Shown here: positions 14,067-42,320 of the stretch, one piece after another | How the letters are laid out: each line of letters opens with the position of its first letter | How positions within the stretch are numbered: the first letter of the stretch is position 1 | Virus record (IMG/VR): IMGVR_UViG_3300034082_004296 | Span: 62,001 to 126,000 of that record | Source: a virus | Reading direction: 5' to 3' (one strand) | Length of the DNA stretch: 64,000 nucleotides | Position numbers and translations under genes: made by a program | The notes under the pieces: model-generated | What the model saw: only the letters and a program-made list of their open reading frames with translations | What the model was told of the DNA's origin: nothing | Database searches by the model: none

Positions 14067-14465
14067 TTATATAGTTATAGTTGAGACCAAATCAAGTGGT
14101 AATTCTAGTGGATCTGCATCATTTAAGGTGGATATTATTCCATAACTAAATTCAAACTCAGGATACTCATTAGTGATAAAGTCGATTGTGTTTAAAACTA
14201 CTGATGCAGAAAGATTGGAGTTTAGGTATATTATCCTACTGTATTTTTCGTTCTTGACATTAATTGCCTTATCTAAAAGTTTCTTAATCTCATAATTTAA
14301 TAAAAAAGACTGCACCTTATTTGGAACAATAAACTTTGTACTAAACTTGTCCTTAATCAGCTTACTCACGTTTAGGATGTAATCGCTACGATCCTTTCGA
14401 TTAAATGTCAGGATAAAGCTCTTATAGTCTTTAACAAAAACAATTGATACTTTTCTCTTTTCCAT
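14067..14465 (-). CDS. Hypothetical protein, 132 aa
   Basis: I do not recognise this protein. It is soluble, lysine- and isoleucine-rich, with alternating helix and strand propensity and no cysteine clusters. It lies 1 nt downstream of the dCMP deaminase gene in the same direction, as the last gene of the long minus-strand replication and metabolism block. Confidence 0.7.
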   Translation of the reverse strand: MEKRKVSIVFVKDYKSFILTFNRKDRSDYILNVSKLIKDKFSTKFIVPNKVQSFLLNYEIKKLLDKAINVKNEKYSRIIYLNSNLSASVVLNTIDFITNEYPEFEFSYGIISTLNDADPLELPLDLVSTITI

Positions 14466-14466: not shown

Positions 14467-14886
14467 CTATATGTCTAGTTTTACAACGTCAATATTTGCA
14501 GCACGCAATATTGTGATTCCAGAAACATCTCGATATGTCTCACGATAAATTACAAGCTTGATTCCTGCCTGGATTATTAGTTTTGAGCACTCCTTACATG
14601 GAGAATAGGTCACATAGAGTGTAGCACCTTCTGTGCTTTGAGTGGATCGAGTCACCTTCATCATTGCATTGGCCTCAGCGTGTAATACATACCAATTAGT
14701 GTCTCCGTTTGCATCTTCACAATCGTTTGGAAAACCCTTAGGCGTGCCGTTAAATCCGTCTGAAATAATGGTACCGTCCTTAACGATTAGAGCACCGACT
14801 TTTTTACGTTTACAACAAGAAAGATTGGACCATTCTGTGGCCATCTTCAAGTAGGTAATATGATATTTAAGATCCTTGTTCGTCAT
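14467..14886 (-). CDS. cd: dCMP deaminase
   Basis: A 139-aa zinc-dependent deoxycytidylate deaminase, converting dCMP to dUMP for thymidylate synthesis. The motifs are HAEANAMM (zinc ligand H69, proton-shuttling E71) and SPCKECSKLI (zinc ligands C97 and C100). The N-terminal KVGALIVKDGTIISDGFNGTPKG segment (read here in parts) is typical of phage and ComEB-type dCMP deaminases. T4 Cd is longer (193 aa); this one is compact. It is next to a thymidylate-synthase-family gene, as expected for a dNTP supply operon, and overlaps the start region of the downstream-reading 71-aa gene by 20 nt. Confidence 0.92.
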   Translation of the reverse strand: MTNKDLKYHITYLKMATEWSNLSCCKRKKVGALIVKDGTIISDGFNGTPKGFPNDCEDANGDTNWYVLHAEANAMMKVTRSTQSTEGATLYVTYSPCKECSKLIIQAGIKLVIYRETYRDVSGITILRAANIDVVKLDI

Positions 14887-15082
14887 TCTTTTCTTTGGGT
14901 TTAACGATACTGTCCGGTGTAAGAGAATAAACTATCGTGACTATTCCTACCCATTGTGGATAAGAGATGACTGATCTAAATACTTTATCTAGACTAGTCC
15001 ATTCATATATGAAATCACAGAGCAAGGAAATTACTAGTAATTTGATGGCTGTTCCAATTATTGATACTATTGCTTTTTTCAC
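14867..15082 (-). CDS. Small membrane protein, 71 aa
   Basis: It has two hydrophobic segments (VSIIGTAIKLLVISLLCDFI and VGIVTIVYSL) with a short basic N-terminus and a charged C-terminus, so it is a predicted inner-membrane protein. It overlaps the dCMP deaminase start by 20 nt and the thymidylate-synthase-family stop by 4 nt, so it belongs to that operon. No family is recognised; the function is unknown. Confidence 0.7.
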   Translation of the reverse strand: MKKAIVSIIGTAIKLLVISLLCDFIYEWTSLDKVFRSVISYPQWVGIVTIVYSLTPDSIVKPKEKNDEQGS

Positions 15083-15948
15083 AGGTTTACGTTTTTAAGA
15101 ATCCAATCATATAGCGGATCAGGTAAGTCAGTTGGCTCATCTTGTCCATCAAAGAGAGATACGAAATTAGAGGTTGGTGTACCGATTATGTTAATTAGAT
15201 CTAGATCGACTTTAGGAATCTCTAAGGGCTCAAACTTACGAGTAATCATCTTCTTTGCGATCTCAAAATGACGCTCGTAGATATGAGAAGAGTTAGCGAT
15301 ATGCGTATATGTACCTAACTCTAATTCAGGATATCCTGCATGGTGACGAAGATGGTTCAGCATCTGCGATTGTAGGATAGCAAAGAATGCAATATCTGTA
15401 GGAAGTCCCAAGATCACATCATTGCTGCGCATGCTCACAGTAAGGTTAAGCTTATTATTTCTGATCTGAAAGATTCCATACATTGTACATACAAAATCCT
15501 TATTTCCTTGTCTCTGATGGGTAGGCAGGTTAAAGTGCAGGACAGCCTGTCGTGAATCCTTGTCTTGAGCTAATGATTCAAGTGCCCATTGATATTGAGT
15601 AAAACCGTGTTCATTCTGGTTATTAAATAGCAGATTGCCGTATGAAGAGTTTACAGTATCATCTTCATTTTTAATAGATTCCCAAAACTTTGCGTATTTT
15701 GCGATATATTCAACATCATTTCTACCCATAAAATACCATAGAAATTCTGCAGCAATATACTTGGATTGAGAAGACCTAAACTCGTTTCTATAGAGACACG
15801 AAAGAGGATCTTCAATCACCAATGCTACATCACACATTTCATTGATCCTCATGTCCCGAGGCTGAGTCACATATTCTGGACTAGTCATCAATTCATGTAA
15901 GAGTTCTTCGTATGCGGCAGCAAAGGAATTTGCTTGAATTATTACCAT
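15079..15948 (-). CDS. Thymidylate synthase-family enzyme, possibly dCMP hydroxymethylase
   Basis: A 289-aa member of the thymidylate synthase / dCMP hydroxymethylase fold. The catalytic cysteine is C154 in KDFVCTMYGIF, followed by VSMRSNDVILGLPTDIAFFA (173-190 region) and SSHIYERHFE. In thymidylate synthases the residue equivalent to E. coli Asn177, which reads the uracil base, is Asn (F-N-I); here it is Asp185 (T-D-I). T4 gp42, the dCMP hydroxymethylase, also has Asp there, and the stretch DF.CT ... MRSNDV resembles gp42 more than cellular ThyA. I therefore infer a dCMP-acting hydroxymethylase is at least as likely as a dUMP methylase. It lies upstream of the dCMP deaminase in one operon. 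The residue after the phosphate-binding Arg133 is Gln instead of Arg. Confidence 0.88.
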   Translation of the reverse strand: MVIIQANSFAAAYEELLHELMTSPEYVTQPRDMRINEMCDVALVIEDPLSCLYRNEFRSSQSKYIAAEFLWYFMGRNDVEYIAKYAKFWESIKNEDDTVNSSYGNLLFNNQNEHGFTQYQWALESLAQDKDSRQAVLHFNLPTHQRQGNKDFVCTMYGIFQIRNNKLNLTVSMRSNDVILGLPTDIAFFAILQSQMLNHLRHHAGYPELELGTYTHIANSSHIYERHFEIAKKMITRKFEPLEIPKVDLDLINIIGTPTSNFVSLFDGQDEPTDLPDPLYDWILKNVNL

Positions 15949-16041
15949 AACTTAGTTTTTATTTTTATACATGTTACTTTTAAAAAGTTTCGATTTTTAA
16001 ATAAAACTTTGCTAGCATCATACAATGTATAACTAGTTTGA

Positions 16042-17709
16042 CTAAATTTTAATTATTTCCATTTCTGAGAAATGATCCTTCTGATTTACTAATATTCGAT
16101 GATCAAAAAGTTCTTCAGGTAGAGATTCATGAGAAACAACAAAGATTGTCATATTATATTTGGTTGAATACTCTTTAAGGATTGATATTGCACGATAAAC
16201 ATTTGTCTTATCTAAAGAACTAAAGATTTCATCAAGAAACATTACGTTCATGGTGCTGTGCTTCATTTTAATTATTTCAATAAACGCAAGCAATACAATA
16301 AGGTTCATCTTTTTTCGCTGCCCACTGGATAAACTCTCAGGAGAGATTTGCATTCCTAAATAAGTAATATGTGGATCAAACTCATTATCGAATTCAAATG
16401 AAAACTTAAATTCTAATTTTTCAGAGATCTCAAGAATCCTAGCATTTAGGGTAGGAATAATTCGGTCAATCATATCACGTTTGATTCCATTTTCAGATAG
16501 AAGATCATCTAAACTTAGTGAAACTGATCTGGTAGAATTTAACTTATCGATTGCGTGTGAATCCTCGCCTATTTGATCCTCTAAGCTCTTAATTATCCCA
16601 GAGATAGAAGATATTTCTTCTGATCCATCATTCTCCTGAGCAGCCTCTAGTGAGGACTCTAAAGCTTGTAATTCAGCCTTCTTATTGAAATAATTAGAAT
16701 CAATATCACCCCGATCTAATAATAATGAAGTTAAGCTCTCATTGATCTCATCAGCTAATTTTTTCTTATTAACTAGTGATTCTTTTAATTTAGTAATCTT
16801 CTCTTCGATCTTTTCTTTTATCTCGATTGAAGAATCAGATTTTAAATCATTAAGACAGTGAGGACATCGGTTTTTAGCGTATATTGTGAGTCGGTTCGAT
16901 AAGTCTCTAATCTCTGAATTTATTGTAATAACCTCCTCTTGAGCGGCTTTATTTGTCTTGGTTTGAGAATCAATTTTATCTTTAAGTTTAGTCTTTAAGA
17001 CTAGAGCTGCAGATACTTCTACCTTTTTATTGGTGATATCAAGGGTAAGCTTATCAGTAAGAGCCTCCTTCTTTTTGCTCAGTCTCTCTTTTAGTGCCTC
17101 AAGTTGAGCTTCATAAGTTTCTAAATTAGATTGACTGCTTTTTAGAGTAGCTGAGTGAATATCAAGATCAGATTTATTTTCCTTCAATTCCTCCTTTACT
17201 CTACTCCGCATATCAGAAAGAATATCAATTCCAAATATTCGATCAACAATTTTTCGTTTATCATCTTTGCTTAGATTTACAAATGATTTAAAATCATCAA
17301 ATGAAAGACTAATAGTATTACAAAAAACTGAAAATGGAATACGTGAAAGTTCCTCTTCAATAAACTCATCGACTTTTCTCTTATCTGGTAGATTAAATTG
17401 AGAGCCGTTTATTTTAATATCACTAAAGTTTGGATCAATTCCTCTGTCAAGCTCAACAATCTCACCAGAGTTGGTAACAAACTTTACGTTAGTATAGGCA
17501 TTTCGATTTATCCAATTTGGGATATCTTTCATTTTACGAATAGCCGAACGTCCATATATTGAGACGGTCAGCGCTTCTTTAATTGAAGATTTACCTGCAC
17601 CATTTTCTCCCTCAACTAGGATTAGTCCTGGTTTATCGTCAAACTTAAATGTTTGTAACATATTACCATAAGATAATATGTTTCTATATGAAAATTCTAT
17701 TAGTCTCAT
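16042..17709 (-). CDS. 46: Recombination endonuclease subunit gp46 (Rad50/SbcC-like)
   Basis: A 555-aa SMC-type ATPase that with gp47 forms the end-resection nuclease used in recombination-dependent replication. Walker A is GENGAGKSS (34-42). Long heptad-rich coiled-coil arms flank a zinc hook CPHC (near residue 280), and the C-terminus has the ABC signature LSSGQRKKMNL and Walker B VMFLDEIFSSLD. The length matches T4 gp46 (560 aa). It abuts the gp47 gene at 17709, the conserved gene pair order. The leader between it and the thymidylate-synthase-family gene (15949-16041) is AT-rich with no gene. Confidence 0.95.
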   Translation of the reverse strand: MRLIEFSYRNILSYGNMLQTFKFDDKPGLILVEGENGAGKSSIKEALTVSIYGRSAIRKMKDIPNWINRNAYTNVKFVTNSGEIVELDRGIDPNFSDIKINGSQFNLPDKRKVDEFIEEELSRIPFSVFCNTISLSFDDFKSFVNLSKDDKRKIVDRIFGIDILSDMRSRVKEELKENKSDLDIHSATLKSSQSNLETYEAQLEALKERLSKKKEALTDKLTLDITNKKVEVSAALVLKTKLKDKIDSQTKTNKAAQEEVITINSEIRDLSNRLTIYAKNRCPHCLNDLKSDSSIEIKEKIEEKITKLKESLVNKKKLADEINESLTSLLLDRGDIDSNYFNKKAELQALESSLEAAQENDGSEEISSISGIIKSLEDQIGEDSHAIDKLNSTRSVSLSLDDLLSENGIKRDMIDRIIPTLNARILEISEKLEFKFSFEFDNEFDPHITYLGMQISPESLSSGQRKKMNLIVLLAFIEIIKMKHSTMNVMFLDEIFSSLDKTNVYRAISILKEYSTKYNMTIFVVSHESLPEELFDHRILVNQKDHFSEMEIIKI

Positions 17710-18818
17710 TAATCGTATTGTTTGGTGTTTCTCAAAGAATCGTAGATTTCTTTAAAACGGTCTACTATTTTTTGAGACTGATGTGATGGAAGATTCATTA
17801 TCTTTATTCTCTCATCAAGTAGAGTAAAGATATTATATTCATAATTTGAATCTATTTCAATATCGCTCTTTTCTCTTAATTGATCCTTTGAATAAGAGCC
17901 TAATTCAAGACGACGATGTCCATAATCTTTTACAAGTTCAGTAAATTGAGATATTGGAAACTTTTTTGAAAATTCAGATTCTATTAAAACATCAATAAAA
18001 TTATTATTGAAGAGTTCACGAATATCTTCAGGAGTCTCATTTAATAGCTCAAAGATATCAAATTTTAGATGTTTTGGAGAAAAGTGATTTGGCACAAATT
18101 TTTCTTGTACTTCTTTTCCACTAACATCTAATACGTAGAAACCTTTAGTGTTTCCTCGATCTCCTCTATCCATTTCATATGGAGTTCCAACATAGAGAAC
18201 ATTTCCTTTTTCTTGGCGAATATGAATATGTCCAGAATAAATTCTAGAGAATGATTGGATATCTTCCGGTTCTAGGCCATGCTCAAGCTTTTGAACTTTA
18301 TTAAAGTTAAATCCTTTAAAATCAGTATGGCAAAATACGTATCTAGCTGAGATATTCTTTTGAATTTGAGCTTTAAGTTCAGGTAGATTCTCAATCCACG
18401 GTAACATTAGAAACTTATGAGAATTTATCGATAATATTTCCGGTTTTGAGTATACTTGGAAATTAGGATATATTTTATCAAATCCTTCTAGTGAATGAGT
18501 ATCAGTTCGATCTTTATAGTATACGTCATGGTTACCAAGAATTACAAAGACTCCTCTTTTAAATTTTTTAGTAAGTACTTCAGCTATCTTTAGGGATAGT
18601 TTATAGATACGTACATTAGTAGATTCCCTAACGTGATTCCAATCACCAACTTGGACAAGTATATCTGTTTCTGGATTAAATCCTTCTTCATCAATCATTT
18701 TAATAAAATGATCAATTAGATATTGACTTTGAATTTCAGACCATTCAACTGAATTGTTTCGTATACCTAGGTGAAGATCACCAAGTACAAATATTTTTCG
18801 AATATTGTCTAATTTCAT
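17709..18818 (-). CDS. 47: Recombination endonuclease subunit gp47 (Mre11/SbcD-like)
   Basis: A 369-aa metallophosphoesterase nuclease partner of gp46. The phosphodiesterase motifs are GDLHLGI (13-19), QVGDWNH, VILGNHDVYY, FCHTDFKG and YSGHIHIRQ, which supply the two-metal centre. The length is near T4 gp47 (339 aa). The start overlaps the 75-aa gene stop by 4 nt and the stop touches the gp46 start, so the two subunits are translated together. Confidence 0.95.
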   Translation of the reverse strand: MKLDNIRKIFVLGDLHLGIRNNSVEWSEIQSQYLIDHFIKMIDEEGFNPETDILVQVGDWNHVRESTNVRIYKLSLKIAEVLTKKFKRGVFVILGNHDVYYKDRTDTHSLEGFDKIYPNFQVYSKPEILSINSHKFLMLPWIENLPELKAQIQKNISARYVFCHTDFKGFNFNKVQKLEHGLEPEDIQSFSRIYSGHIHIRQEKGNVLYVGTPYEMDRGDRGNTKGFYVLDVSGKEVQEKFVPNHFSPKHLKFDIFELLNETPEDIRELFNNNFIDVLIESEFSKKFPISQFTELVKDYGHRRLELGSYSKDQLREKSDIEIDSNYEYNIFTLLDERIKIMNLPSHQSQKIVDRFKEIYDSLRNTKQYD

Positions 18819-19042
18819 CCTTGAGTTGCTAACTGGTCAATATCTATTACTTTTGAAATACTCGTAAGTTTTGCTAAAAACGCAGTAAGAGCAGCAGGGG
18901 TCGCAAAAGTATAAGTGGTTGGCAGGATTGAGTTAGCATCATAGAACGTTATGTCGGTTGATGAAGTCTGTTCATACCGATATACTTGCTCAAGGTTAAG
19001 ATATACTGATCCACCTGTGTGAGTTAATTTTATCCAAATCAT
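18815..19042 (-). CDS. Hypothetical protein, 75 aa
   Basis: A small protein with predicted beta-strands at the N-terminus (WIKLTHTGGSVYLNLEQVYRY, read in parts) and a helix at the end. I have no family for it. It overlaps gp47's start by 4 nt and the 181-aa gene's stop by 1 nt, so it is embedded in the recombination operon. Confidence 0.7.
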   Translation of the reverse strand: MIWIKLTHTGGSVYLNLEQVYRYEQTSSTDITFYDANSILPTTYTFATPAALTAFLAKLTSISKVIDIDQLATQG

Positions 19043-19587
19043 TAGTGTATTCTTTTTTTATGCATTTTTCCTTCTAGGAATTGGTATTTTTTATTTAGTT
19101 CAATGATTAGTATTTCCTGAATCTCAGTTTCAAGGGAATCAAAGATCTTTTTATATTCCATTGAAGATATTGAAGAGATTGCTTCTAAAATATAGATTGG
19201 ACTATAGAAAGTAATGCCCTTATTAGTAACGTCCAAGTTTTCATGAACCCTATTAAAAATCAGGTTAATGTCCTCCTTTGAAAATCTTATTTTTGCAACG
19301 GAGGAGTTTTTGTCGGTCAGCTCACTAACATACTTGCTTAATACATCGTCAGTCTTTAAAAAATCAAAGATTATATCAAGTATAAATGAAGATTCGAGCT
19401 GCTCCTCATAATCATAAAGATCCTTTAGATAATTATCGGAATAATCGGAAGATACTGATATCTTTTTTGAAAACTCATACTCATCAGAGTCTCTAAGCTT
19501 GTCTCCATTATAATAACTATTATTAAATATTTTATCTTCTCTTACCTGGTCGTCAGAGTTTTCTTCTGTGAATTCTTCGGTGCTCAT
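19042..19587 (-). CDS. Hypothetical acidic protein, 181 aa
   Basis: No family is recognised. The N-terminal 60 residues are acidic and disordered-looking (Ser/Asp/Glu/Tyr-rich); the rest is predicted helical. It sits between the replicative helicase gene and the gp47/gp46 pair, in the same direction and with 14 nt to the helicase stop. T4 has helicase-loading and primase functions near gene 41, but nothing in this sequence identifies either. Confidence 0.7.
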   Translation of the reverse strand: MSTEEFTEENSDDQVREDKIFNNSYYNGDKLRDSDEYEFSKKISVSSDYSDNYLKDLYDYEEQLESSFILDIIFDFLKTDDVLSKYVSELTDKNSSVAKIRFSKEDINLIFNRVHENLDVTNKGITFYSPIYILEAISSISSMEYKKIFDSLETEIQEILIIELNKKYQFLEGKMHKKRIH

Positions 19588-19601
19588 TCATAAAGATTAT
19601 T

Positions 19602-21086
19602 TTATATTGAATTAAAGAGAGCGTCATAGTCGTCCTCAATTAAGTTTTCATTTACAAACGATGGAGAGGCATTAGTTATTTCAGAGTATTCTGATCTTAA
19701 CTCATCTGCCATTCGACTCACTTCTTCATCGTCGCTATAGAATTCGCTGTTTTGTCCAACTTCTTCAGAAAGTCTAAAGTAGTCCTTATGCATAGTATAA
19801 AACTTGTAACTTTCTTCGTAACCGTTGTCTCTATTCGCAATCACTTTGATTTTCATTCTACTCTCTAATGGACTTCTCATAAGACCAAATAGAGCGTCAA
19901 CTGTGTGGATTAGACCAAATGACTCAGCTACTGAATCCATACCCAAATCAAAGTTGTCAATGTCTTCTCTACGAATCTGAGTAGCACTAATAACACACCA
20001 TTCATTTCGCATAGCAACACCTCTAAGTTCTTCAGAGATTGCTTTGATCTTTTCATATAGGCCGTTTTGAGTGTTGATTGGTTTAAGTAGGTTTAAGTAA
20101 TCAACAACGATGACTTTAAATTTTCGATTCATCTTTTGTTCTAGTCGAACAAAATAATTCTCAATGTCGATTGCAGTTGCGCCACCGGTTGGAAATTCTT
20201 TGATAACAAGTTCACCAATAGTTTGACCTGAAGCCTTAAGTTCATTTATCTTTTTCTCAATTAGCTTAGCTGCATGTTCGTCTGTGATATTAGCATAATC
20301 TTCAGACTTGATGTTTAAAATATTTGAACCGATTCTTTTCATATAGGCACGATCAGCTAATTCTACCGTGACTAGTCCAGTTGCATTTCCAGTCAAGAAT
20401 GATCGAGCTGCAATATTTCCAAGCACCATTGATTTTCCAACCTTTGGTCTACCTTGAAAAACAACTAGCGCTTTTGAATTCCAGCCACCACCCTGTACCT
20501 TATCTAAGAATGGAAATCCAGTAGGACTACCTGATTTAGAAATTTGGATATGGGATTCAGGGTTAAAGAAATTTAAACCAGTATCTGCGCTAGAAAAATT
20601 TAGAGCAAGCTTACTACTAATATCATTTCTGATTTTTTCAGAAATCTTATCAATATTTCCAGGATCAATTGGGGTAGTCTTTAAATAAGTAAGAAGATCA
20701 AATACTGTTAGGTTTAGATTTCTTAGAAGAATAAACGACCTAACGTACTTATAAAGATAATCATAATTGTATTCGGTCAAGTTAAAGGCATATAACTCAT
20801 TAAACTCGTCATCATTTAGATTAACATGAGAAAGATCAAGGTAACTCTTTAATTCCTTTCGGTTTGGAATCTTTTCGTATTCTTTAAAAAACTTAACGGC
20901 TGCCTTAAATGACTCCTGTCGATCATCCTCATTAAAATAGCTAGGCTTCATCATTGTGATTAGCTCTTCTCTTCTTAACGAATCATGATTGGATGGACGT
21001 AGGTCATTTATGTCATTCTCAGAATTAAGAATAAAATTCCAAACCATCTTTTCAAGAGAGTCAATATTTTCTGTAAAATCAATCAT
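19602..21086 (-). CDS. 41: Replicative DNA helicase (T4 gp41 / DnaB-like)
   Basis: A 494-aa hexameric 5'-3' replicative helicase. The N-terminal domain (to about 165) is helical as in DnaB/gp41. The RecA-like core has Walker A GRPKVGKS (212-219), VTVELADRAYMKRIGSNIL, Walker B VIVVDYLNLL, and ISATQIRRED with the sensor glutamine. The C-terminal tail is acidic and could bind partners. It overlaps the upstream 112-aa gene by 8 nt. No DnaG- or gp61-like primase is visible in the window. Confidence 0.93.
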   Translation of the reverse strand: MIDFTENIDSLEKMVWNFILNSENDINDLRPSNHDSLRREELITMMKPSYFNEDDRQESFKAAVKFFKEYEKIPNRKELKSYLDLSHVNLNDDEFNELYAFNLTEYNYDYLYKYVRSFILLRNLNLTVFDLLTYLKTTPIDPGNIDKISEKIRNDISSKLALNFSSADTGLNFFNPESHIQISKSGSPTGFPFLDKVQGGGWNSKALVVFQGRPKVGKSMVLGNIAARSFLTGNATGLVTVELADRAYMKRIGSNILNIKSEDYANITDEHAAKLIEKKINELKASGQTIGELVIKEFPTGGATAIDIENYFVRLEQKMNRKFKVIVVDYLNLLKPINTQNGLYEKIKAISEELRGVAMRNEWCVISATQIRREDIDNFDLGMDSVAESFGLIHTVDALFGLMRSPLESRMKIKVIANRDNGYEESYKFYTMHKDYFRLSEEVGQNSEFYSDDEEVSRMADELRSEYSEITNASPSFVNENLIEDDYDALFNSI

Positions 21087-21417
21087 TCGTTAAGTAAAAA
21101 TAAGTTAATCCTTTTTTTGTAAAATAGATGAATTCTCCTTGAGTAGTAAGATATTCTTCGTTGATCATCGTCTTTAATGATTTAACTAAGTTTGTCTTAA
21201 AAGTTTCATCTTTTATCCTTTCACCAAAAACGTATTTTAGAGACTTGGATGAAAACTTTATGCCATCCGGGTCAATATCCTTGTCTTTGGAAGCAGCAAC
21301 CCTTATAATGTACTGTAGGATCTCAAAAAGGAGGGTAAACTCATCGCTCAATCCCTCCTCATTATATAAGTTCAGATAATACTTTATCGGTAGATCAGAA
21401 CGTAGATTCATCGTCAT
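21079..21417 (-). CDS. Hypothetical protein, 112 aa, possible winged-helix
   Basis: A small basic protein between UvsX and the helicase, overlapping both neighbours (23 nt and 8 nt). The C-terminal half (LVKSLKTMINEEYLTTQGE then FIYFTKKGLTYF) has the helix-turn-strand-strand pattern of winged-helix proteins. Its position next to gene 41 makes a helicase-loading or accessory role imaginable, but it is half the size of T4 gp59 and I see no clear similarity. Confidence 0.7.
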   Translation of the reverse strand: MTMNLRSDLPIKYYLNLYNEEGLSDEFTLLFEILQYIIRVAASKDKDIDPDGIKFSSKSLKYVFGERIKDETFKTNLVKSLKTMINEEYLTTQGEFIYFTKKGLTYFYLTND

Positions 21418-22597
21418 CGTTTAAATCATTAAGTTCACTTGTCTCTAATAGATCAATTTCATCTTGTGTTTCTGGGAATTTAAAGGTAGGCTTAATTACT
21501 TTTTCATCAAGTTCCAATAGTACGTCATGAGTAAATAATCGAGCTGAAAAAAATTCTTTGACTTGTACTAAATCACCATTGTGTCGAATAACATAATTTT
21601 TTCCAAGTTTCTTTGGTAGAAAATAGAATTTTTCTCCATCTACTTCAAATTCTGAACAGATTGATTGTTCGTCTGCTTTAAGCTTTGAAAACTCTTTTTC
21701 AGTCAATTTATTTCCTCGACCTACTCCACAATTTTCCCAACTAACAAACTGTTCAAGACCAACATATTGATTCATACCTTTATGGAAAGAGATATGGAAT
21801 TCAATGTCGATTGGTTTAGCTAAACGATTCTTTCTAGTCTTGGACCTAACGATAATTCCAGTAGTGGTTTTGGCATCGTCTCTTAAGGTACCTTTACTCA
21901 ACATCAAGATTATTGAAGCTGAAAACTCAGGACCACCACCACCAGACATTCCTTTAGGAGTGTATTGATCCATCGACGCATATGTGTGATTTGTAAAAAT
22001 AAATGGAACTTTTAAGTTAGATAGTTCAAGAGTAAATGACTTGAATAGAGATCTCATCTCTTTAGAACGAAGTCCCATATCTGATGCATTTTTACCAGCA
22101 TCCATGTCTCGCTTGCTCTTATCTGTATCCAACATTCCGACTGAATCTACAAAGATCGCAGCCTTTAATCCTGGATTTTCTCTCATCGTTTCGATAAAAT
22201 CATTGATAAAGAACTTAACATCACTGATTAAACCCATACGAAGGTATTTTAATTTTTCTAGATCTACTCCAAACTTAGTGTAGTCAGACCGGTCAATTGC
22301 ACCCTCAGTATCGATATAGAAAACGAAATAGTCTTTCTTTTGAAGTTCACGAACAGCATTTAAACAAAGAAATGTTTTACCTGCACCAGAGTCTCCAGCA
22401 ATTCCAATACTTCGAGTGTTTGGATATCCTCCAAATACTGAACCTGAAATTTGTGCATTTAAAAGATAATTTCCAGTTGGAATATAATCATCAATGTCGG
22501 AGAATCCCATTAAGGTGACTTTGGACTTTACTTTCTTTTCTAATAGATCATTGAACTTATTAAAAGCATTAATTGCGTCATTTGTTGACTTTGCCAT
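21395..22597 (-). CDS. uvsX: RecA-like recombinase UvsX
   Basis: A 400-aa strand-exchange recombinase. Walker A is GDSGAGKTF (68-76) and Walker B AIFVDSVGML; FIFTNHTYASMDQYTPKG is followed by a glycine-rich DNA-binding loop (MSGGGGPEFS). The length is close to T4 UvsX (391 aa), and the acidic C-terminal tail (NDLNDDDESTF) resembles that of UvsX, which modulates filament binding. The product would act with the SSB and gp46/47 in recombination-dependent replication. It overlaps the next gene by 23 nt; a 45-nt AT-rich leader precedes its ATG. Confidence 0.95.
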   Translation of the reverse strand: MAKSTNDAINAFNKFNDLLEKKVKSKVTLMGFSDIDDYIPTGNYLLNAQISGSVFGGYPNTRSIGIAGDSGAGKTFLCLNAVRELQKKDYFVFYIDTEGAIDRSDYTKFGVDLEKLKYLRMGLISDVKFFINDFIETMRENPGLKAAIFVDSVGMLDTDKSKRDMDAGKNASDMGLRSKEMRSLFKSFTLELSNLKVPFIFTNHTYASMDQYTPKGMSGGGGPEFSASIILMLSKGTLRDDAKTTTGIIVRSKTRKNRLAKPIDIEFHISFHKGMNQYVGLEQFVSWENCGVGRGNKLTEKEFSKLKADEQSICSEFEVDGEKFYFLPKKLGKNYVIRHNGDLVQVKEFFSARLFTHDVLLELDEKVIKPTFKFPETQDEIDLLETSELNDLNDDDESTF

Positions 22598-22642
22598 AAT
22601 TAATTTGTTTTAATATATTCTACTAGAGAATGGGCAAAAGTT

Positions 22643-23200
22643 CTATTCAGAGATGTATGAAAGTAATAAAATAGAACAGGATAAGGCTAACGTATCGCAT
22701 ATCTCTCCTCTCATGACTCTGCTAAATCTTACTTTATCTATAGAGTGAAGCTTTGATTCGGGATTAAGAACTTTTGCTGTAAATCCGGACGGTTCATCGC
22801 TATAATTAGTTAGGTTGACTGCATAACACTTATAAGTCTTAGTAAAAGGAACAGTATGTTGGATTTGACCTAAATAAAAAATATCATTTACATCAATATC
22901 ATTCAATCCAAGTTCATGGTCTATGCAATCTGATAGAGACTCATGATAGGTGTTAAATTCGTCTGGTTCAAGTGTAGTTGTGATGCATCGATGGTTTTCT
23001 CCATCCAATACATAATCGTGATATTTAGCTAAGTATAAGTTTTTTATTTGGCCGTTTTCATTAACGTCAAAAGGAAGCAAACATATTGCTTCCTTTGAGG
23101 ATGAAATTCTTTTAAAGCTTCCCTTGTCTCCAGTGAAACTTAGAATCTTAAACTTATCGTCTGAATATTCTTCTTTTGAATTAAACTGATCATTCTTCAT
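22643..23200 (-). CDS. Hypothetical protein, possible degenerate Nudix fold, 185 aa
   Basis: I am not sure of the family. Residues 35-135 run AICLLPFDVNENGQ, YLAKYHDYVL, then ESLSDCIDHELGL and VPFTKTYKCYAVNLT. This order of strands, with a helix ending HELGL, recalls Nudix hydrolases whose box normally ends REUxEExGU, but the key Arg and one Glu are missing. It is therefore either an inactive Nudix-like protein or an unrelated fold. It overlaps the upstream gene by 11 nt and ends before UvsX. Confidence 0.7.
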   Translation of the reverse strand: MKNDQFNSKEEYSDDKFKILSFTGDKGSFKRISSSKEAICLLPFDVNENGQIKNLYLAKYHDYVLDGENHRCITTTLEPDEFNTYHESLSDCIDHELGLNDIDVNDIFYLGQIQHTVPFTKTYKCYAVNLTNYSDEPSGFTAKVLNPESKLHSIDKVRFSRVMRGEICDTLALSCSILLLSYISE

Positions 23201-23828
23201 GGATCTCGGTGATATTTACAGTAGGTCCAGACTTGCTTCTCTGAGTTTTTAGTGGAACCACCATGTCTGAGATAGCTGACTGTATTACAGTTTTATTTAT
23301 CGCTCGAAAAACGTAATCAGATAATTCACTTAAAAACTTTTCTTTGTCCTTAGCGTTACTATACATCATCTTTAGAAAATCCTGTTCAGGAAGATTCATA
23401 GTTACTTGAAGATCTATTTTACGCTCTTCTGAATTAAACATCTCAAACATATTAGTAGTAGGCTGAGCCTGTTGAAAATGTCGAGGCTGAGCATCACCAT
23501 TTTGTTCTAAAGAATTTGGCGGCATTGTCTGAGTTTGATTTACTCTAGGTTGAACAGTCGGTCTCTTTGGTCCAGAAATGGATTCAACTTCTGCTTTACT
23601 TAAAGGCTGCATGTCTCCATGTATCATGAGTAGACTTGTATTAAGTTGAGCAGTATCTACACTTGACCCATCATCAAATAGGGCAAAGAATCGGTCTCCC
23701 CTAGGCTCAATATTTCTGCAGGTAACAACTTTGCCTAATAATTCAGGACGATTTGTCTTGATCCACTGAAATTTTGCTCCAGAAAAGTTTTCCATTAAGG
23801 AAATTAGTTTATTTTCATCAAATTGCAT
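23190..23828 (-). CDS. Hypothetical protein, 212 aa
   Basis: I do not recognise this protein. The start was placed at the ATG at 23828 (MQFDENKLISLMENFSG), 16 nt after the upstream stop; an in-frame ATG at 23912 would add 28 basic residues and overlap the upstream gene by 68 nt. An N-terminal beta-rich domain (GKVVTCRNIEPRGDRFFALF, KOW/SH3-like) is followed by a Gln/Pro/Asn-rich linker and a helical C-terminal domain. It lies between the polymerase gene cluster and UvsX. Confidence 0.7.
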   Translation of the reverse strand: MQFDENKLISLMENFSGAKFQWIKTNRPELLGKVVTCRNIEPRGDRFFALFDDGSSVDTAQLNTSLLMIHGDMQPLSKAEVESISGPKRPTVQPRVNQTQTMPPNSLEQNGDAQPRHFQQAQPTTNMFEMFNSEERKIDLQVTMNLPEQDFLKMMYSNAKDKEKFLSELSDYVFRAINKTVIQSAISDMVVPLKTQRSKSGPTVNITEIHEE

Positions 23829-23844
23829 CTGATCTTGATTTTTT

Positions 23845-24177
23845 TTAGGAATTAAGTTCTTCCATAGTTGAGGCAGTCTTATTCTCCTCAATAGCTTTAA
23901 TAAATTCTTCATCTAACGAACCATTATTTGGAAGATTTGAGTCTGGTTGAACCAGTGTGATTGTTGAAAAGTGATCTGCTGGAATAGGATCAATCGACTT
24001 ATTCCATAGTGGATTATACATTTCGCCAGTTGAGCGATTTATTGCAAACTTATCTTTGCTTGTAGGCAAAGCTGCCATCTTTTTTCTAACCTCCTTGATT
24101 TGTTGAGGAGATGGTGAATTTTTACATGCGTCTAGAAATCCTTCTAGCCAGTTTACAAAATCTTGTGTTGTGTTCAT
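23845..24177 (-). CDS. Hypothetical protein with FxxWLxGFLDA motif, 110 aa
   Basis: The N-terminus DFVNWLEGFLDACKNSPSPQ followed by a helix QIKEVRKKMAAL matches a motif common to small uncharacterised proteins of many phages; the molecular role is not known. The C-terminal half is polar and probably disordered. It is translated in the polymerase operon, 1 nt after the upstream stop. Confidence 0.75.
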   Translation of the reverse strand: MNTTQDFVNWLEGFLDACKNSPSPQQIKEVRKKMAALPTSKDKFAINRSTGEMYNPLWNKSIDPIPADHFSTITLVQPDSNLPNNGSLDEEFIKAIEENKTASTMEELNS

Positions 24178-24178
24178 A

Positions 24179-24409
24179 TTAATCGGTTATTTTAAAATTT
24201 ATCTCTTCTTTTAGTTTTTCAATGTCTAAATCATCTGCAGTGTCTGCATTTAGGACAGTCAGTGTCAGCTTTTCGATATCACTGGATCGATATGCTATCA
24301 CATAATAGTCAGTTAATTTATCTTCTAATTGAGCAATTGACTTATTAATGGGTTGTAGTTGAGTTATTGAATCTTCCGGAAAAGCAACTACGAGTATTGG
24401 CTTTGCCAT
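24179..24409 (-). CDS. Hypothetical protein, 76 aa
   Basis: A small acidic protein (MAKPILVVAFPEDSITQL at the start) with an alpha/beta appearance. Its ATG overlaps the polymerase fragment's stop (TAATG), so it is translationally coupled to it. It contains no polymerase motif, so it is not the missing C-terminal half. The function is unknown. Confidence 0.7.
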   Translation of the reverse strand: MAKPILVVAFPEDSITQLQPINKSIAQLEDKLTDYYVIAYRSSDIEKLTLTVLNADTADDLDIEKLKEEINFKITD

Positions 24410-25830
24410 TATTTTGAATTTTTTAACTGTTTAATCTCACCCTGAGTCTTGATACGTTCATCATATAGACGAGTAAGAATTTTCCTAGCAACTGAATCTG
24501 TTTTACTTGAAAACATAGTATCGTTCTTAGTATGGATTTCAGTACCGTCTTTTTTAACTTTATCGGTTTTTCCAAGATAGGTATCTGGTGAGATATTAAA
24601 TTGAATTTGTATGTTAGGATACATTGATGAAAAGTCATAGCATGCAACTGCACCATAATATCCAGGAATTGGATCCTTTACATAGGCGCCGGCATAGGTT
24701 CCATCAATAACTTCTTCTCCCCAAGGAAGTTTCATCATCTTCATGTTCTTGTTTAAGAACTCACGACACATTAGAATTTCAGCAATATACACTGGACTAA
24801 ATACTTTATTTACTTCAACTTGAGCGACGTTTGCCATAGCGAAGGCAACATCCATTAGAGCTAGCTTATCTTCGATTAGTTTAACTAGAATAACGTCAAT
24901 TACGTTATACATAGTAAAAAGATAAGTATCTTTTTGAAACTCTCTAAATGAAGGATAATCGTGGTGCAATTTAGCTGTACCTAGGACAAGATCTGCAATG
25001 TAATCAAGCTTATAGTTTTCTACAACTTTATAAGGCTTCATTTTTTCAAAGACTTGCATGTAATCAAGAACTCCTAAGTGAGTAGGAATCTTGACTTTAG
25101 AAACAGTTGATCGAGTTGGCATTTTTTCCATCATATCGATCTTTAGGTTCTTACCGCGATTCATCAGATACTTCCAGTCAAATTCTGTTACATTCCAGCC
25201 AGTCACAAAATTAAAGTGGGGCATAATCTTATGGAAATAGAATTCCATTAATTCATCTTCACTCTTAAAGAACTTATATTTAATTTTGAAATCTTGATTA
25301 AAGAGGCGAGCATCTTCTGGTTTTTTAGGAACGGTTTTTCTAAAGTATTCATTGACCTCTTTTTCCATTTGAACGATCTGTTCTGGTGCAAGACCATCAG
25401 GCTGATCTTCGGTATTTAAAATAGAGAGAATGTAGGTGATGTTGTCTTCATTACAGAATGAGATCAACCCAACTGGCATTCTAGCTTTGTCTGGTTCTGG
25501 AAAAGAGTCATCAATTAATTTAATCTCAATATCGAGATATGTTTTCTTAGGAAAATTATCAAAGTTATAGACTAGCTCAAGTTCTTCAGCCGTTAATTTT
25601 TCTTGAATTAACTCTTGAATTCTAAACTGGTTCATGTATTGTCCTTGAGACTGACCCTTTTTTACAAACTTTCCATTCCAATTTTTAGTAGTGGTTGGCG
25701 TTTGAGATTCTACCCAATTATACATTTCATGGTCCATTAGTCTTTTTCTAATAAATTCTATTTTTCCATTATTGTTATAATAAGAAATTGTTAAAATATT
25801 ATCATTTAATACTTCGGCGCCAATTATCAT
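24409..25830 (-). CDS. 43: Family B DNA polymerase, N-terminal half (exonuclease domain to motif A); split gene
   Basis: 473 residues corresponding to the first half of a gp43-like polymerase. The 3'-5' exonuclease motifs are TYLDIEI (Asp100/Glu102), GWNVTEFDWKYL (211-222) and YNVIDVILVK (308-317). Polymerase motif A is CYDFSSMYPN (397-406, Asp399), followed by QFNISPDTYLGK. The protein then ends at ...RIKTQGEIKQLKNSK, just before the position of motif B (K...NS.YG). Motif C (DTD) is also absent, and no other frame in the window carries them. T4 gp43 is 898 aa. The stop is coupled to the next start, so this looks like a real gene end, not a sequencing error; a second polypeptide must supply the palm and fingers remainder. 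Split gp43 genes are known in some Aeromonas T4 relatives, and a separated exonuclease and polymerase in Rhodothermus phage RM378. Confidence 0.93.
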   Translation of the reverse strand: MIIGAEVLNDNILTISYYNNNGKIEFIRKRLMDHEMYNWVESQTPTTTKNWNGKFVKKGQSQGQYMNQFRIQELIQEKLTAEELELVYNFDNFPKKTYLDIEIKLIDDSFPEPDKARMPVGLISFCNEDNITYILSILNTEDQPDGLAPEQIVQMEKEVNEYFRKTVPKKPEDARLFNQDFKIKYKFFKSEDELMEFYFHKIMPHFNFVTGWNVTEFDWKYLMNRGKNLKIDMMEKMPTRSTVSKVKIPTHLGVLDYMQVFEKMKPYKVVENYKLDYIADLVLGTAKLHHDYPSFREFQKDTYLFTMYNVIDVILVKLIEDKLALMDVAFAMANVAQVEVNKVFSPVYIAEILMCREFLNKNMKMMKLPWGEEVIDGTYAGAYVKDPIPGYYGAVACYDFSSMYPNIQIQFNISPDTYLGKTDKVKKDGTEIHTKNDTMFSSKTDSVARKILTRLYDERIKTQGEIKQLKNSK

Positions 25831-26060
25831 ACTTTAGGTTTAAACATTTCATTAATATGACCACATTTAGCACAAGCAATTACTGGAATTGGGACTATTG
25901 AGTCTTGATCCGAGCCTGTCATAAATCTTGAAACTTTTTTAATCATCATTTTTTCTTCAAACACCTTTCCTTGACACTCTTCACATTCCATGTATGGAGC
26001 ATCTGCTAGATTAATGTTTAATTGCGGTTGAGATTGGCCGCCGAGTTGTGTTGAATCCAT
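25827..26060 (-). CDS. Small zinc-ribbon-like protein, 77 aa
   Basis: Two CxxC pairs (CEECQGKVF and CAKCGHINEM) about 40 residues apart suggest a zinc ribbon. The start was taken at the ATG at 26060 (MDSTQLGGQSQ), which leaves 16 nt after the upstream stop; an in-frame ATG at 26102 overlaps that gene by 26 nt and is possible. The stop overlaps the polymerase start by 4 nt (ATGA). A role with the polymerase or in transcription would fit the context but is not shown. Confidence 0.75.
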   Translation of the reverse strand: MDSTQLGGQSQPQLNINLADAPYMECEECQGKVFEEKMMIKKVSRFMTGSDQDSIVPIPVIACAKCGHINEMFKPKV

Positions 26061-26076
26061 AGTTATTATACTTTTT

Positions 26077-26544
26077 TTAATAGCCTCTTTTCTGTCTGTC
26101 ACGATTTTCTGCGTTCTTTGCCATGTACATGTTGTACATTTCCTGCGGAGTCATGCCAATTGAGATAGCATAATTCATAAAGAAGTGTAACATGTCAATG
26201 ATTTCAAACTTTGCTTCAAGCTGATCACTTTCAGTTAGATCTGAGAACTTCATAAAGCCGTACTTGCCAAAGTCCTTTTTCCAATACTTCCAAATAGCGT
26301 TTCCGCTACCGTCCTTGATTCCGCCTAGGGCGTCAGTTGCTTCATGAATTTCATCTACCATCGCATGAGTATTTGCATGCCAAAATGACATAATTTCGCG
26401 AAGAGTCATGTTGTCAAAATTCCATCCATATACGTGATTTTGAGTGTCCTTTTGGAGAGCCATGATGTCGCCTAAAGTGTCAGTACTTTTTGAATATAGA
26501 TCTTCGATCGTAAGATCGGCACAAGTATTATCGATATTTGCCAT
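26077..26544 (-). CDS. 56: dCTP/dUTP pyrophosphatase (T4 gp56-like, all-alpha NTP-PPase)
   Basis: A 155-aa all-alpha NTP pyrophosphatase of the dimeric dUTPase/gp56 type. The metal-binding motifs are DEIHEATDAL (64-73) and EIIDMLHFFMN (114-124), with WKYWKK between them and the C-terminal signature KNAENRDRQKRGY, which closely resembles the end of T4 gp56. In T4 this enzyme removes dCTP and dUTP so that neither is incorporated and supplies dCMP and dUMP to gp42, Cd and Td. It is the first gene of the minus-strand replication block, divergent from the tail sheath gene. A plain dUTPase activity is the alternative. Confidence 0.82.
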   Translation of the reverse strand: MANIDNTCADLTIEDLYSKSTDTLGDIMALQKDTQNHVYGWNFDNMTLREIMSFWHANTHAMVDEIHEATDALGGIKDGSGNAIWKYWKKDFGKYGFMKFSDLTESDQLEAKFEIIDMLHFFMNYAISIGMTPQEMYNMYMAKNAENRDRQKRGY

Positions 26545-30423: not shown

Positions 30424-30723
30424 CTATTCAAATTCTTCTAGAGAGATATCGTTAGGGTCATCTAAGATTGCGATAATCTCATTTGCCATTATGACATAGT
30501 GTTTTTCTCCTTTGTATGTTAGCTCTAATCCAGCATAACGATTAAAAAGGATTTGATCTCCAGGCTTAACCACCATCTCGTTGTGTTTAGTACCGTCTCC
30601 AGTATTAACAACAATTCCGATATTTGGTTTTTTGACTGCTTTTTCAGGAAGCATAATTCCTTGACTCGTGCGAGTCTCCTTTTGTTTAGGTTTAACTAAT
30701 ACTCTTTCGTATAGAGGTTTCAT
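30424..30723 (-). CDS. groES: GroES-like co-chaperonin
   Basis: A 99-aa co-chaperonin. KPLYERVLVKPKQKE at the N-terminus, the mobile loop with TSQGIMLPEK, then GIVVNTGDGTKHNEMVVKPG and ILFNRYAGLELTYKGEKHYV are all typical of GroES, and the conserved GIMLP resembles the bacterial I-V-L tripeptide that docks on GroEL. T4 gp31 is a diverged GroES analogue, while this one looks much more bacterial. It partners the phage's own GroEL (39936-41561) or the host's. Its start overlaps the RNase H stop (ATGA), and it ends at a bidirectional terminator. Confidence 0.93.
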   Translation of the reverse strand: MKPLYERVLVKPKQKETRTSQGIMLPEKAVKKPNIGIVVNTGDGTKHNEMVVKPGDQILFNRYAGLELTYKGEKHYVIMANEIIAILDDPNDISLEEFE

Positions 30724-32170: not shown

Positions 32171-33202
32171 TTAAAGATTTGAGAATAGAGAATCATATTC
32201 ATCGTCAGAGTCAGTCGAAGAAACGGATTCAGATTCGATTGCTGTTTCTAAATCAAGTGAAGCAGGTTTAGCTGGAGTACTTGAAAACTCTAGATCATCA
32301 TTAACACTGGCTTTAGGGGCGTTTGATTTTCCAGGTTTCATTTTAGAACGAATTAATTCATTCATTTTAGTATCCTTACTTCTTTCAAGAATCATCTCCA
32401 ATACTTCTCTTTGAGGAACTGCTGCAATAATAGCTTCCGCTACTTTAGTGAAAGTTTCTTCTGTCCAATCTTGGTGAAAATATTCATCCATTTTTGGAGT
32501 ATTTTTTGTCATGAACTCGGTTACAAGCTTAACTGATTTTTCATCATTTTTAACCTGTACTTGAGTATCACCGATTTTAAATACTAGTGGAGTAACTTCA
32601 TCCATGAATTTACACTTAGACCAATCTCTAAAATCTTTGGTTTTTTTACCAACAACACAAAGAAGATCTTTTCCTTCAAGTAGGTGATAAGGATTTACTT
32701 TTTTACTAGTTGAAAATCCATCAAGCTCTTCAGGATTTACTAATTGGTCAATAAGCATTCCAATTTGATTTCTAAACTTGAAGATTTTAATAGTTCCTTC
32801 AAGATCAGGTCTTTGTGGATCTTTCTTGATGTAAACAGCTGAGTGATTAGTACTCCATCGTGAGAAGTTTCTACCAATTTCTTCAGCGATTTCAGGTTCC
32901 TCTTTTTTCAAAGATCTTAGAACTGATTCCATTGTCCAAAGGATTGAAGGTTTTTCAACATTCGATGGACAGTCAATAATTAAGGATTCCTTAGTTAAAG
33001 GATTCCAAAATTTAGCAGTGTACTTTGTGTACTTGCTTTTTGTTTTGTCAAACACATACGGAATAAATCGGAAAACTGACTTATACGAACCGTTGTGCGC
33101 ATTTGGATCCGGATCATACACGTTCGGATCTACTTTTTTACTGCCACCAGCCTGAGGTTTCTTTGTGAATCCGTCTTCTGGTAAATCAAAAAAATCTGTC
33201 AT
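32171..33202 (-). CDS. 32: Single-stranded DNA-binding protein (T4 gp32-like)
   Basis: A 343-aa SSB. The start was placed at the ATG at 33202 (MTDFFDLPEDGFTKKPQ); an in-frame ATG 75 nt further upstream would add hydrophobic residues unlike an SSB. The core with YKSVFRFIPYVFDK, KYTAKFWNPLTKESLIIDCP and VYIKKDPQRPDLEGTIKIF resembles the gp32 OB-fold. The C-terminus is acidic (SVSSTDSDDEYDSLFSNL), as in SSBs that recruit partners. I do not see the zinc-binding Cys/His cluster of T4 gp32. It acts with UvsX, the polymerase and helicase. The leader is AT-rich (33203-33254) and a terminator for the upstream gene lies just before it. Confidence 0.85.
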   Translation of the reverse strand: MTDFFDLPEDGFTKKPQAGGSKKVDPNVYDPDPNAHNGSYKSVFRFIPYVFDKTKSKYTKYTAKFWNPLTKESLIIDCPSNVEKPSILWTMESVLRSLKKEEPEIAEEIGRNFSRWSTNHSAVYIKKDPQRPDLEGTIKIFKFRNQIGMLIDQLVNPEELDGFSTSKKVNPYHLLEGKDLLCVVGKKTKDFRDWSKCKFMDEVTPLVFKIGDTQVQVKNDEKSVKLVTEFMTKNTPKMDEYFHQDWTEETFTKVAEAIIAAVPQREVLEMILERSKDTKMNELIRSKMKPGKSNAPKASVNDDLEFSSTPAKPASLDLETAIESESVSSTDSDDEYDSLFSNL

Positions 33203-33254
33203 AATTTTTGTTGTTATTTTTATATTCTTGTACTGGTAATCCGATAAAAGTTTT

Positions 33255-33288
33255 AAAAAAAACAAAAAATGCCTCAAAAAGAGGCATT
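33255..33288 (-). terminator. Rho-independent terminator (minus strand) of the histone-like gene
   Basis: On the minus strand AATGCCTC / GAGGCATT with a TTTTT loop is followed by a run of T residues (TTTTTTGTTTTTTTT). It lies 24 nt beyond the stop of the 89-aa gene and separates it from the SSB gene. Confidence 0.85.
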
Positions 33289-33311
33289 TTCCGGTTTATA
33301 GGTTTAGGAGT

Positions 33312-33581
33312 TTACTTAGCTGAAATCTCGTCAGTTAGAACTTGGCGAAGGTTTTTTGCTCCTTCTTGAATCTTAGTCATTTCAGCTTTAACCATTGGAT
33401 GCTTGATTGCTTTTCTAATCTCTTGCATTTTCTTTTTAAGTCTGTTTCCAGCGCTTTTTACGCCTTTTCCATAATACTTATCAGCATCGTCTTCTGCTGA
33501 AGATACAAGAGAAACAATCGGTTCGAATATTGCAGCCTGTGCTGATGCAATTTCCGCTTTTAATTTTTCAAAATCGTTCAT
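33312..33581 (-). CDS. Histone H1-like DNA-binding protein (Bacteroidota type)
   Basis: An 89-aa basic helical protein. DADKYYGKGVKSAGNRLKKK followed by MQEIRKAIKH matches the pattern of the small histone H1-like proteins found in Bacteroidota (acidic/aromatic turn, K-G-x-x-x-A-G-x-R-x-R/K-K). It would bind and compact DNA or influence transcription, possibly of the host nucleoid. It is a single-gene unit with a TATAAT-type element upstream (33600-33609) and its own terminator. The family assignment comes from the motif alone. Confidence 0.65.
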   Translation of the reverse strand: MNDFEKLKAEIASAQAAIFEPIVSLVSSAEDDADKYYGKGVKSAGNRLKKKMQEIRKAIKHPMVKAEMTKIQEGAKNLRQVLTDEISAK

Positions 33582-33599
33582 ATTTAATACTTTTTATAG

Positions 33600-33609
33600 T
33601 ATTATACTA
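33600..33609 (-). promoter_or_regulatory. Candidate promoter -10 (TAGTATAATA) for the histone-like gene
   Basis: The minus strand reads TAGTATAATA, containing TATAAT, 19 nt before the ATG at 33581. It is the same 10-mer at the same distance as before the gp56-like gene (26563-26572), which suggests an early or middle promoter class distinct from the late one. Confidence 0.4.
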
Positions 33610-33627
33610 GATATTGAGTATTGGTTT

Positions 33628-34377
33628 TTATATTGAATTAACTATATGATCTACTTTGCTTGAGAAAGTAGCGTCTGGATATAGTTCTAGAGCTCGAGTA
33701 ACCCATACTTCCATGACATGATCGTATTCTGACTCACTCATGTAATTAGATTCAATAAAAGGCAGGAGATAATCGTCAAAAACTTGATCGATTGGACAGT
33801 TTTGCTCCTTTGAGCTATAGTACATTCCTTCAATCATTGATTCTATCTCGTCCATCAATAGAAAGTAACGATAACTCTTTTTAGCTCCTTCCCTTTTGTG
33901 TTTACTGCTAACCTGAGAATTAAAAGGCGAGCGGTTCATTCCTAACTGATCTAGGTGATTTGTTTCGTGTGATAAAATATCAATTAGTCGATAGTGTAAT
34001 TTACTATATAGGATCGGCTCTTCTCTAGGATTTAGGATAATATGAACTATTATTTTTGGAACAGCTACTGTAGATCTACTCATTCTAGTATTAGCGTCTA
34101 TACTGTATCCAAGTTTATCAAAGTTTATCTTTTCCCAAGGAAGACCCTCAAAGTGACTGTCTTCTTCTAAGTCAGGTGAAGAGTCTCTACGAACATTTAG
34201 GATCAAATCAAAGGTAAATGGTTCAATAAATTCCATTCCAGAAAAAACAGAATACTCTGTGCTCTCACCTGTAGGTGAAGTACGAATCTTTGTGATTAGA
34301 GTTTGAGCCAATCTTTTGATAAACTCTTCCTTGCTATCCACGTTTTCATTTATGAATTGATTGAAAGACTTAATCAT
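33628..34377 (-). CDS. Putative HExxH metalloprotein with capsid-targeting-like N-terminus, 249 aa
   Basis: The N-terminus MIKSFNQFINENVD closely resembles T4 capsid-targeting sequences of the M-K-T-Y-Q-E-F-I-x-E type, with I-N-E ending at Glu11 as the expected prohead protease site. HETNH at 137-141 in DILSHETNHLDQLG is an HExxH zinc-metallopeptidase motif; DEIESMIEGMYY about 30 residues downstream could give the third ligand. The rest is not assigned to a family. It is the last gene of a three-gene cassette (35112 to 33628) that begins with a late promoter on the minus strand, and all three members carry the same kind of N-terminus. I infer a protease-like protein packaged in the head, possibly injected with DNA; activity is unproven. 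Confidence 0.75.
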   Translation of the reverse strand: MIKSFNQFINENVDSKEEFIKRLAQTLITKIRTSPTGESTEYSVFSGMEFIEPFTFDLILNVRRDSSPDLEEDSHFEGLPWEKINFDKLGYSIDANTRMSRSTVAVPKIIVHIILNPREEPILYSKLHYRLIDILSHETNHLDQLGMNRSPFNSQVSSKHKREGAKKSYRYFLLMDEIESMIEGMYYSSKEQNCPIDQVFDDYLLPFIESNYMSESEYDHVMEVWVTRALELYPDATFSSKVDHIVNSI

Positions 34378-37127: not shown

Positions 37128-37130
37128 GCT

Positions 37131-37496: not shown

Positions 37497-37511
37497 ATCA
37501 ATCCTTTTTAT

Positions 37512-39830: not shown

Positions 39831-39883
39831 TGTGAATTAATTTATAATTTATACAAAGTTAGTGAATAAAGTTTTTATGGAAA

Positions 39884-39915: not shown

Positions 39916-39935
39916 GCTTTTAATATTGGTCAGTC

Positions 39936-42320
<2,385 letters not shown>

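Follow-up and report, generated by a model that had tools for sequence, protein, structure and literature searches.

A predicted dCMP 5-hydroxymethylase of a new branch in an uncultured, probably Bacteroidota-infecting phage clade

Introduction

The gene at positions 15079-15948 of this viral DNA encodes a homologue of thymidylate synthase (TS). Does the enzyme make thymidylate, or does it modify cytosine? Phage T4 makes its modified cytosine by the same type of enzyme. A first-pass annotation of the DNA proposed a cytosine-modification pathway, on the grounds that the enzyme has Asp where TSs have the uracil-reading Asn and that a gp56-like dCTPase/dUTPase and a dCMP deaminase are encoded in the same block. 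We examined this proposal in the window, that is, the whole stretch of 64,000 nucleotides, which corresponds to positions 62001-126000 of a linear virus record of 176,210 bp. The record may be incomplete. Coordinates are those of the window unless they are given as record positions.

Organization of the locus

The three genes were found where the first-pass annotation had placed them, and all of them are on the minus strand. These genes and their neighbors are as follows.

14067-14465, minus strand: conserved 132-aa protein without an assigned function, which follows the deaminase and has the same place in nearly all relatives
14467-14886, minus strand: dCMP deaminase (PHROG 174, E=2.2e-52)
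15079-15948, minus strand: predicted dCMP hydroxymethylase, gp42-like, TS superfamily, 289 aa (profiles, alignment, tree)
16042-18818, minus strand: gp46/gp47-like recombination nuclease genes, upstream part of the conserved block
19602-25830, minus strand: remaining conserved block, with a gp41-like helicase, a UvsX-like protein and the N-terminal part of a family-B DNA polymerase
26077-26544, minus strand: gp56-like all-alpha dCTPase/dUTPase with the motifs E65xxE68 and E114xxD117 (PHROG 173, E=2.3e-20)
35195-38516, minus strand: class I ribonucleotide reductase, NrdA (35195-37000) and NrdB (37512-38516), a deoxynucleotide source

A 71-aa ORF separates the dCMP deaminase from the TS-family enzyme. 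The score of the gp56-like protein against Pfam dUTPase_2 was under the cut-off.

Relatives with identities down to about 52% share the following gene order: gp56 (or a dUTPase), a 91-aa protein, the polymerase part, two unknowns, UvsX, gp41, gp47, gp46, the enzyme with Asp at the uracil-reading position (Asp enzyme), the deaminase, and the 132-aa protein. The deaminase was downstream of the Asp enzyme at 79 of 80 IMG/VR loci, and the remaining contig stops at the enzyme. The replication gene block of this clade includes the enzyme as a constant component.

Active-site residues of the TS-family enzyme

The enzyme matched Pfam PF00303 (E=2.8e-26) and PHROG 160 (E=1e-45). Its top relatives among solved structures were the dCMP hydroxymethylase of T4 (1b49, 1.5e-20) and MilA (5jnh), and every true TS ranked behind them. 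The catalytic set of the TS superfamily, that is, the Cys, Glu58, Tyr94, His207 and Tyr209, is present at the sequence level. The structural statements made here on the enzyme are derived by sequence alignment to published structures. The codons of the key residues are as follows.

15394-15396, minus strand: Asp185 (= E. coli ThyA Asn177, T4 Asp179), predicted cytosine reader
15487-15489, minus strand: catalytic Cys154 (= T4 Cys148), followed by Thr155 at the ThyA His147 site
15496-15498, minus strand: Asp151 at Cys-3 (= T4 Asp145, water activation; Leu in ThyA; PMC6400193)

As the first-pass annotation had claimed, Asp185 shares an alignment column with Asn177 of E. coli ThyA. The ThyA reference sequence, which we take to be that of the E. 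coli enzyme, has its key residues at the published positions. The residue is Asp in all 62 distinct relatives, in the alignment of which Thr155, Cys154, Asp151, Ser101 and Tyr103 are also invariant and Ile92 is nearly so, with a single Val as the exception. Because the Asp is invariant in these relatives and because the best solved relatives are the T4 dCMP hydroxymethylase and MilA, a chance origin of Asp185 was ruled out.

In the T4 dCMP hydroxymethylase, cytosine is read by Asp179, the hydroxylating water is set by Asp145 (at Cys-3, where ThyA has Leu), Ser94 and Tyr96, and Val85 occupies the site of ThyA Trp83 (PMC6400193). At these signature sites, the query enzyme has Asp185, Asp151 (Cys-3), Ser101 (Tyr-2), Tyr103 and Ile92 (at Trp83). 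Thr155 stands at the ThyA His147 site, and positions 177 (Asp) and 147 were the best separators of TS proteins on cytosine-modified contigs from others (PMC8670742). At Ser175 and Arg133, the query agrees with the dCMP enzymes and not with the CMP enzymes (PMC5175136). It departs from T4 and ThyA at Gln134, where both of these have their second phosphate-binding Arg.

The ThyA controls had Leu, His (one Val) and Asn at the compared sites, and the control enzymes of SPO1-like Goe26 and PAKlein3 had Asn at 177. At the positions of the ThyA hallmarks Asn177, His147, Leu143 and Trp83, the query has Asp, Thr, Asp and Ile, respectively. Likewise, at the marks of the SPO1 gp29-type dUMP hydroxymethylase (Cys-Asn, Asn-Arg and Asn177), it has Cys-Thr, Met-Arg and Asp185. 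The invariant Asp185 and Thr155, set against the Asn of Goe26 and PAKlein3, thus argue against the reading that the enzyme is a divergent TS or a dUMP hydroxymethylase making dTMP or hydroxymethyl-dUMP.

These comparisons also bear on a different reading, namely that the query, like the enzyme of phage XP12, methylates dCMP, so that the DNA would carry 5-methylcytosine. The change of Asn to Asp at 177 alone converts ThyA to a dCMP methylase, according to work cited in PMC8670742, and one gp56-bearing contig (G034) encodes a ThyA that naturally has Asp at this position. However, this natural protein retains the ThyA features and groups with ThyA. The query departs from the marks of a dCMP methylase on a ThyA chassis (Leu at Cys-3, His147 and the C-terminal tail): it lacks the C-terminal tail of ThyA and has the hydroxymethylase set (Asp at Cys-3, Ser at Tyr-2, Ile at Trp83).

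Phylogenetic placement and comparison with known enzymes

We constructed a tree of 36 sequences, including 13 ThyA and 14 rows of the query family. The 13 ThyA split off at 100/100, and the query family was placed outside them, among the hydroxymethylases. Within a clade made up of hydroxymethylase-type enzymes, the query family (support 97/98) joined those of Xanthomonas phage Xp15 and Acinetobacter phage HHU4 (96/96). T4 gp42 was on a very long branch, the exact position of which the tree does not fix. The first-pass annotation had held that grouping with ThyA, with no other TS in the genome, would speak against the pathway; the enzyme falls outside ThyA.

The closest relative of the enzyme in annotated collections was that of LR756500.1, with 52% identity. 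In cellular genomes, the only hits were one in a contig assigned to a Bacteroidetes MAG and another, which was weak, in a Flavobacteriales MAG. These hits are consistent with Bacteroidota as the probable host group of the phage clade.

The query and T4 gp42 (1b49, 6a9b) have in common the catalytic Cys, Glu and Tyr and the cytosine-reading Asp (T4 Asp179), and Asp145, Ser94, the small residue at Trp83, Ser169 and Arg123 of gp42 are matched in the query. In contrast, the query is about 43 aa longer, with a C-terminal extension, it has Gln for Arg124, and the two proteins are distant in the tree. Unlike T4 gp42, the query gene is located after gp46 and before the dCMP deaminase. The CMP hydroxymethylase MilA (5jnh, 5b6d) shares with the query Cys-Thr, Met-Arg, the Asp186-type cytosine reader and the Asp at Cys-3, whereas Ala176 and Lys133 of MilA, which are related to its CMP preference, are Ser and Arg in the query, as in the dCMP enzymes.

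The active-site set of the query is also found in the enzymes of Xp15, HHU4, Enterococcus phage vipetofem and Lactobacillus phage ATCCB, and those of Xp15 and HHU4 form the sister group of the query family. However, these four enzymes have only 30-33% identity to the query and belong to other phage types with different neighbors; the neighbor of the Xp15 enzyme, for example, is an annotated carbamoyltransferase, unlike the query locus.

Separate thymidylate synthases in the relatives

Neither a second TS-family gene nor ThyX was found across the 176,210-bp record. That the Asp enzyme is the sole TS-family gene there favors the reading as a divergent TS or dUMP hydroxymethylase, but the relatives give a different picture. 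A separate canonical ThyA accompanies the Asp enzyme in seven of them (G012, G013, G025, G032, G037, G050 contig 291 and G051), and ThyX does so in two (G017 and LR756500). The ThyA copies checked in these relatives had Asn at 177. Since these nine relatives have a separate ThyA or ThyX, the Asp enzyme is not their thymidylate synthase. A separate TS, for which the first-pass annotation had proposed a search, is present in these relatives but was not found in this record.

In a near-colinear close relative (G054), ThyA is located right after the homologue of a gene at the end of this record, and in G025 it is located between the homologues of the last and the first genes of this record. Because of these positions, we think that the ThyA of this phage may fall in the stretch missing between the contig ends, that is, it may be cut off here. 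Taken together with the residues at the active site, we regard it as extremely improbable that the enzyme makes dTMP or hydroxymethyl-dUMP.

Glucosyltransferases and the nature of the modification

T4-type beta-glucosyltransferases act on hydroxymethylcytosine, and hydroxymethylcytosine itself does not require glucosylation. LR756500 encodes a homologue of the T4 DNA beta-glucosyltransferase (E=4.3e-33 to 1bgt), 1.4 kb downstream of its Asp enzyme. When this homologue was searched against the IMG/VR viral contigs, three contigs were found, each of which encodes the Asp enzyme. The residues of two of them (G051 and G052) were checked. The third nearly duplicates the LR756500 region, so that only these two are independent of LR756500. 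A beta-glucosyltransferase gene also adjoins the Asp-type enzyme in phages ATCCB and vipetofem. The T4-type glucosyltransferase needs hydroxymethylcytosine, and its presence with the Asp enzyme in the relatives therefore favors hydroxymethylcytosine over methylcytosine.

The first-pass annotation had named glucosyltransferases among the genes to be sought in the rest of this genome. The search of the genome with beta-glucosyltransferase profiles gave no match, although such homologues are present in LR756500, G051 and G052. This result is in line with a dCMP methylase. Considering also the residues of the query and the glucosyltransferases of the relatives, however, we judge a methylase to be very unlikely and prefer the dCMP hydroxymethylase.

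At record 161934-163882, there is a pair of genes for an FkbM methyltransferase and a glycosyltransferase-like protein, which is conserved in G025, G032 and G050. We asked whether the latter (record 162818-163882) is distantly related to the T4 beta-glucosyltransferase. Neither the single protein nor two profiles matched any PDB entry, and profile-profile comparison with the beta-glucosyltransferase gave a probability of 7.8%, over the Arg..Glu donor motif, which is not significant. It is rather doubtful that the clade glycosylates its hydroxymethylcytosine via an undescribed glycosyltransferase family represented by this protein, possibly with an O-methylated sugar on cytosine. Such a sugar, if true, would be a new DNA hypermodification.

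The gp56-like protein

The gp56-like proteins are dual dCTPase/dUTPases. The protein of this phage has 38% identity over 94 aa to a T4-like gp56 and up to 37.6% identity across 97% of its length to those of other T4-like phages. It shares with T4 gp56 the catalytic ExxE and ExxD metal motifs and the C-terminal KNxxN..RQ..Y. Among 63 sequences, the ExxE motif was invariant and the ExxD motif near-invariant.

We surveyed 28 longer contigs selected only for carrying gp56. Some cytosine-type TS was encoded by 15 of them, and three kinds co-occur with gp56: the Asp hydroxymethylase (9 contigs), a second, very divergent Asp-type TS homologue (5) and an Asp-ThyA (1). The other 13 were without any TS; several of these are fragments, but G035 (169 kb) and G038 (116 kb) are not small. 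None of the 28 had solely an Asn-type TS, a result which fits the dCTPase role.

On the other hand, the gp56 slot of the conserved block is swapped for a trimeric dUTPase in four relatives (G010, G016, G017 and G019; for example, L300:1549-2145 and L301:3687-4124), all with the Asp enzyme. In addition, a gp56 homologue is retained in RB43/RB49-like relatives of T4, which have no known modification genes (PMC8056088). Because of these two facts, a gp56 homologue alone is not diagnostic, and we rejected its use as the sole marker of modified cytosine. Thus the dCTPase proposed in the first-pass annotation is a real gp56 homologue, but its role in the pathway, although plausible, has weaker evidence than that of the enzyme.

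The same facts bear on a variant of the pathway with an active hydroxymethylase and a gp56-like protein that hydrolyzes dUTP alone; in this case, cytosine would be replaced only partly or dCTP would be removed by another enzyme. The exchange for a dUTPase and the retention of gp56 in T4-like phages favor this variant, whereas the survey of TS kinds opposes it. We consider the variant possible but unlikely, and a gp56-like protein acting on dCTP is preferred.

The survey gave some further observations. In G034 (313 kb), a ThyA-type enzyme with Asp at 177 and Met at 165 is encoded beside a dCMP deaminase (L253:1474-2580, plus strand). This protein keeps the Leu, the His and the ThyA tail and nests among ThyA in the tree; judging from its residues, we take it as a candidate for a natural dCMP methylase that arose from within ThyA. 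The divergent Asp-type homologue is about 260 aa long, matches PF00303 below the cut-off, and has Arg, not Asp, at Cys-3 where aligned. It occurs in G027, G028, G029, G040 and G048 (copies at L275:2920-3699, L277:2974-3768, L293:12540-13331 and in L304). The G027 copy (L273:3703-5616) has an intein with a homing-endonuclease-like domain (PF14890, LAGLIDADG) at the catalytic cysteine.

Proposed pathway and its implications

From the homology, the residues, the tree, the synteny and the co-occurrence with other genes, we infer that the enzyme is likely a dCMP 5-hydroxymethylase of a new, large branch of the family. The cytosine modification proposed by the first-pass annotation thus agrees with the cytosine-reading Asp, the hydroxylation signature, the tree, and the separate TSs and glucosyltransferases of the relatives.

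The reaction may proceed as follows. The enzyme would take the methylene from methylene-tetrahydrofolate and add it to C5 of dCMP via Cys154, with Asp185 reading cytosine. The intermediate would be quenched by water held by Asp151 and Ser101, giving hydroxymethyl-dCMP. The gp56-like enzyme most likely hydrolyzes dCTP and dUTP to the monophosphates and clears plain dCTP; its products would supply the hydroxymethylase and also, together with the deaminase encoded next to it, the synthesis of thymidylate. The conversion of hydroxymethyl-dCMP to the triphosphate for incorporation would then be started by a kinase. As for the gp1-like dNMP kinase that the first-pass annotation had looked to, the genome encodes a weakly thymidylate-kinase-like P-loop protein (record 39749-40345). 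It was present in 12 of 15 Asp-enzyme records tested, and it is perhaps a candidate for the gp1 role.

We think that the virion DNA probably contains 5-hydroxymethylcytosine. Our literature search for this base in Bacteroidota phages found no report, and no DNA base analysis was found in the part of the North Sea flavophage paper that we consulted. The enzyme is a new branch of the known T4-type trick, and it extends T4-style cytosine replacement beyond coliphages to a large clade of uncultured T4-like phages, which probably infect Bacteroidota. The prediction for such phages is resistance to restriction enzymes specific for C and perhaps to some CRISPR nucleases. Some library methods may also recover their DNA poorly, and modification-dependent defences may be present in their hosts. 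The residues compared above also provide rules to tell hydroxymethylases from methylases among phage TS homologues.

Other genes of the record

The family-B DNA polymerase is apparently split into two genes about 54 kb apart (window 24409-25830 and record 32896-34332). By eye, we noted phage-encoded GroEL and GroES (window 39936-41561 and 30424-30723, respectively) and a UvdE-like UV-damage endonuclease (window 45486-46448; PHROG 8420 'endonuclease'). A protein at record 4615-5244 resembles, also by eye, a 2-oxoglutarate/Fe(II) oxygenase, and its only matches were weak ones to Asp_Arg_Hydrox and cupin. Near the structural genes, at record 135376-137713, genes for a GT25, a sulfotransferase and, by eye, a heptosyltransferase-like protein are clustered.
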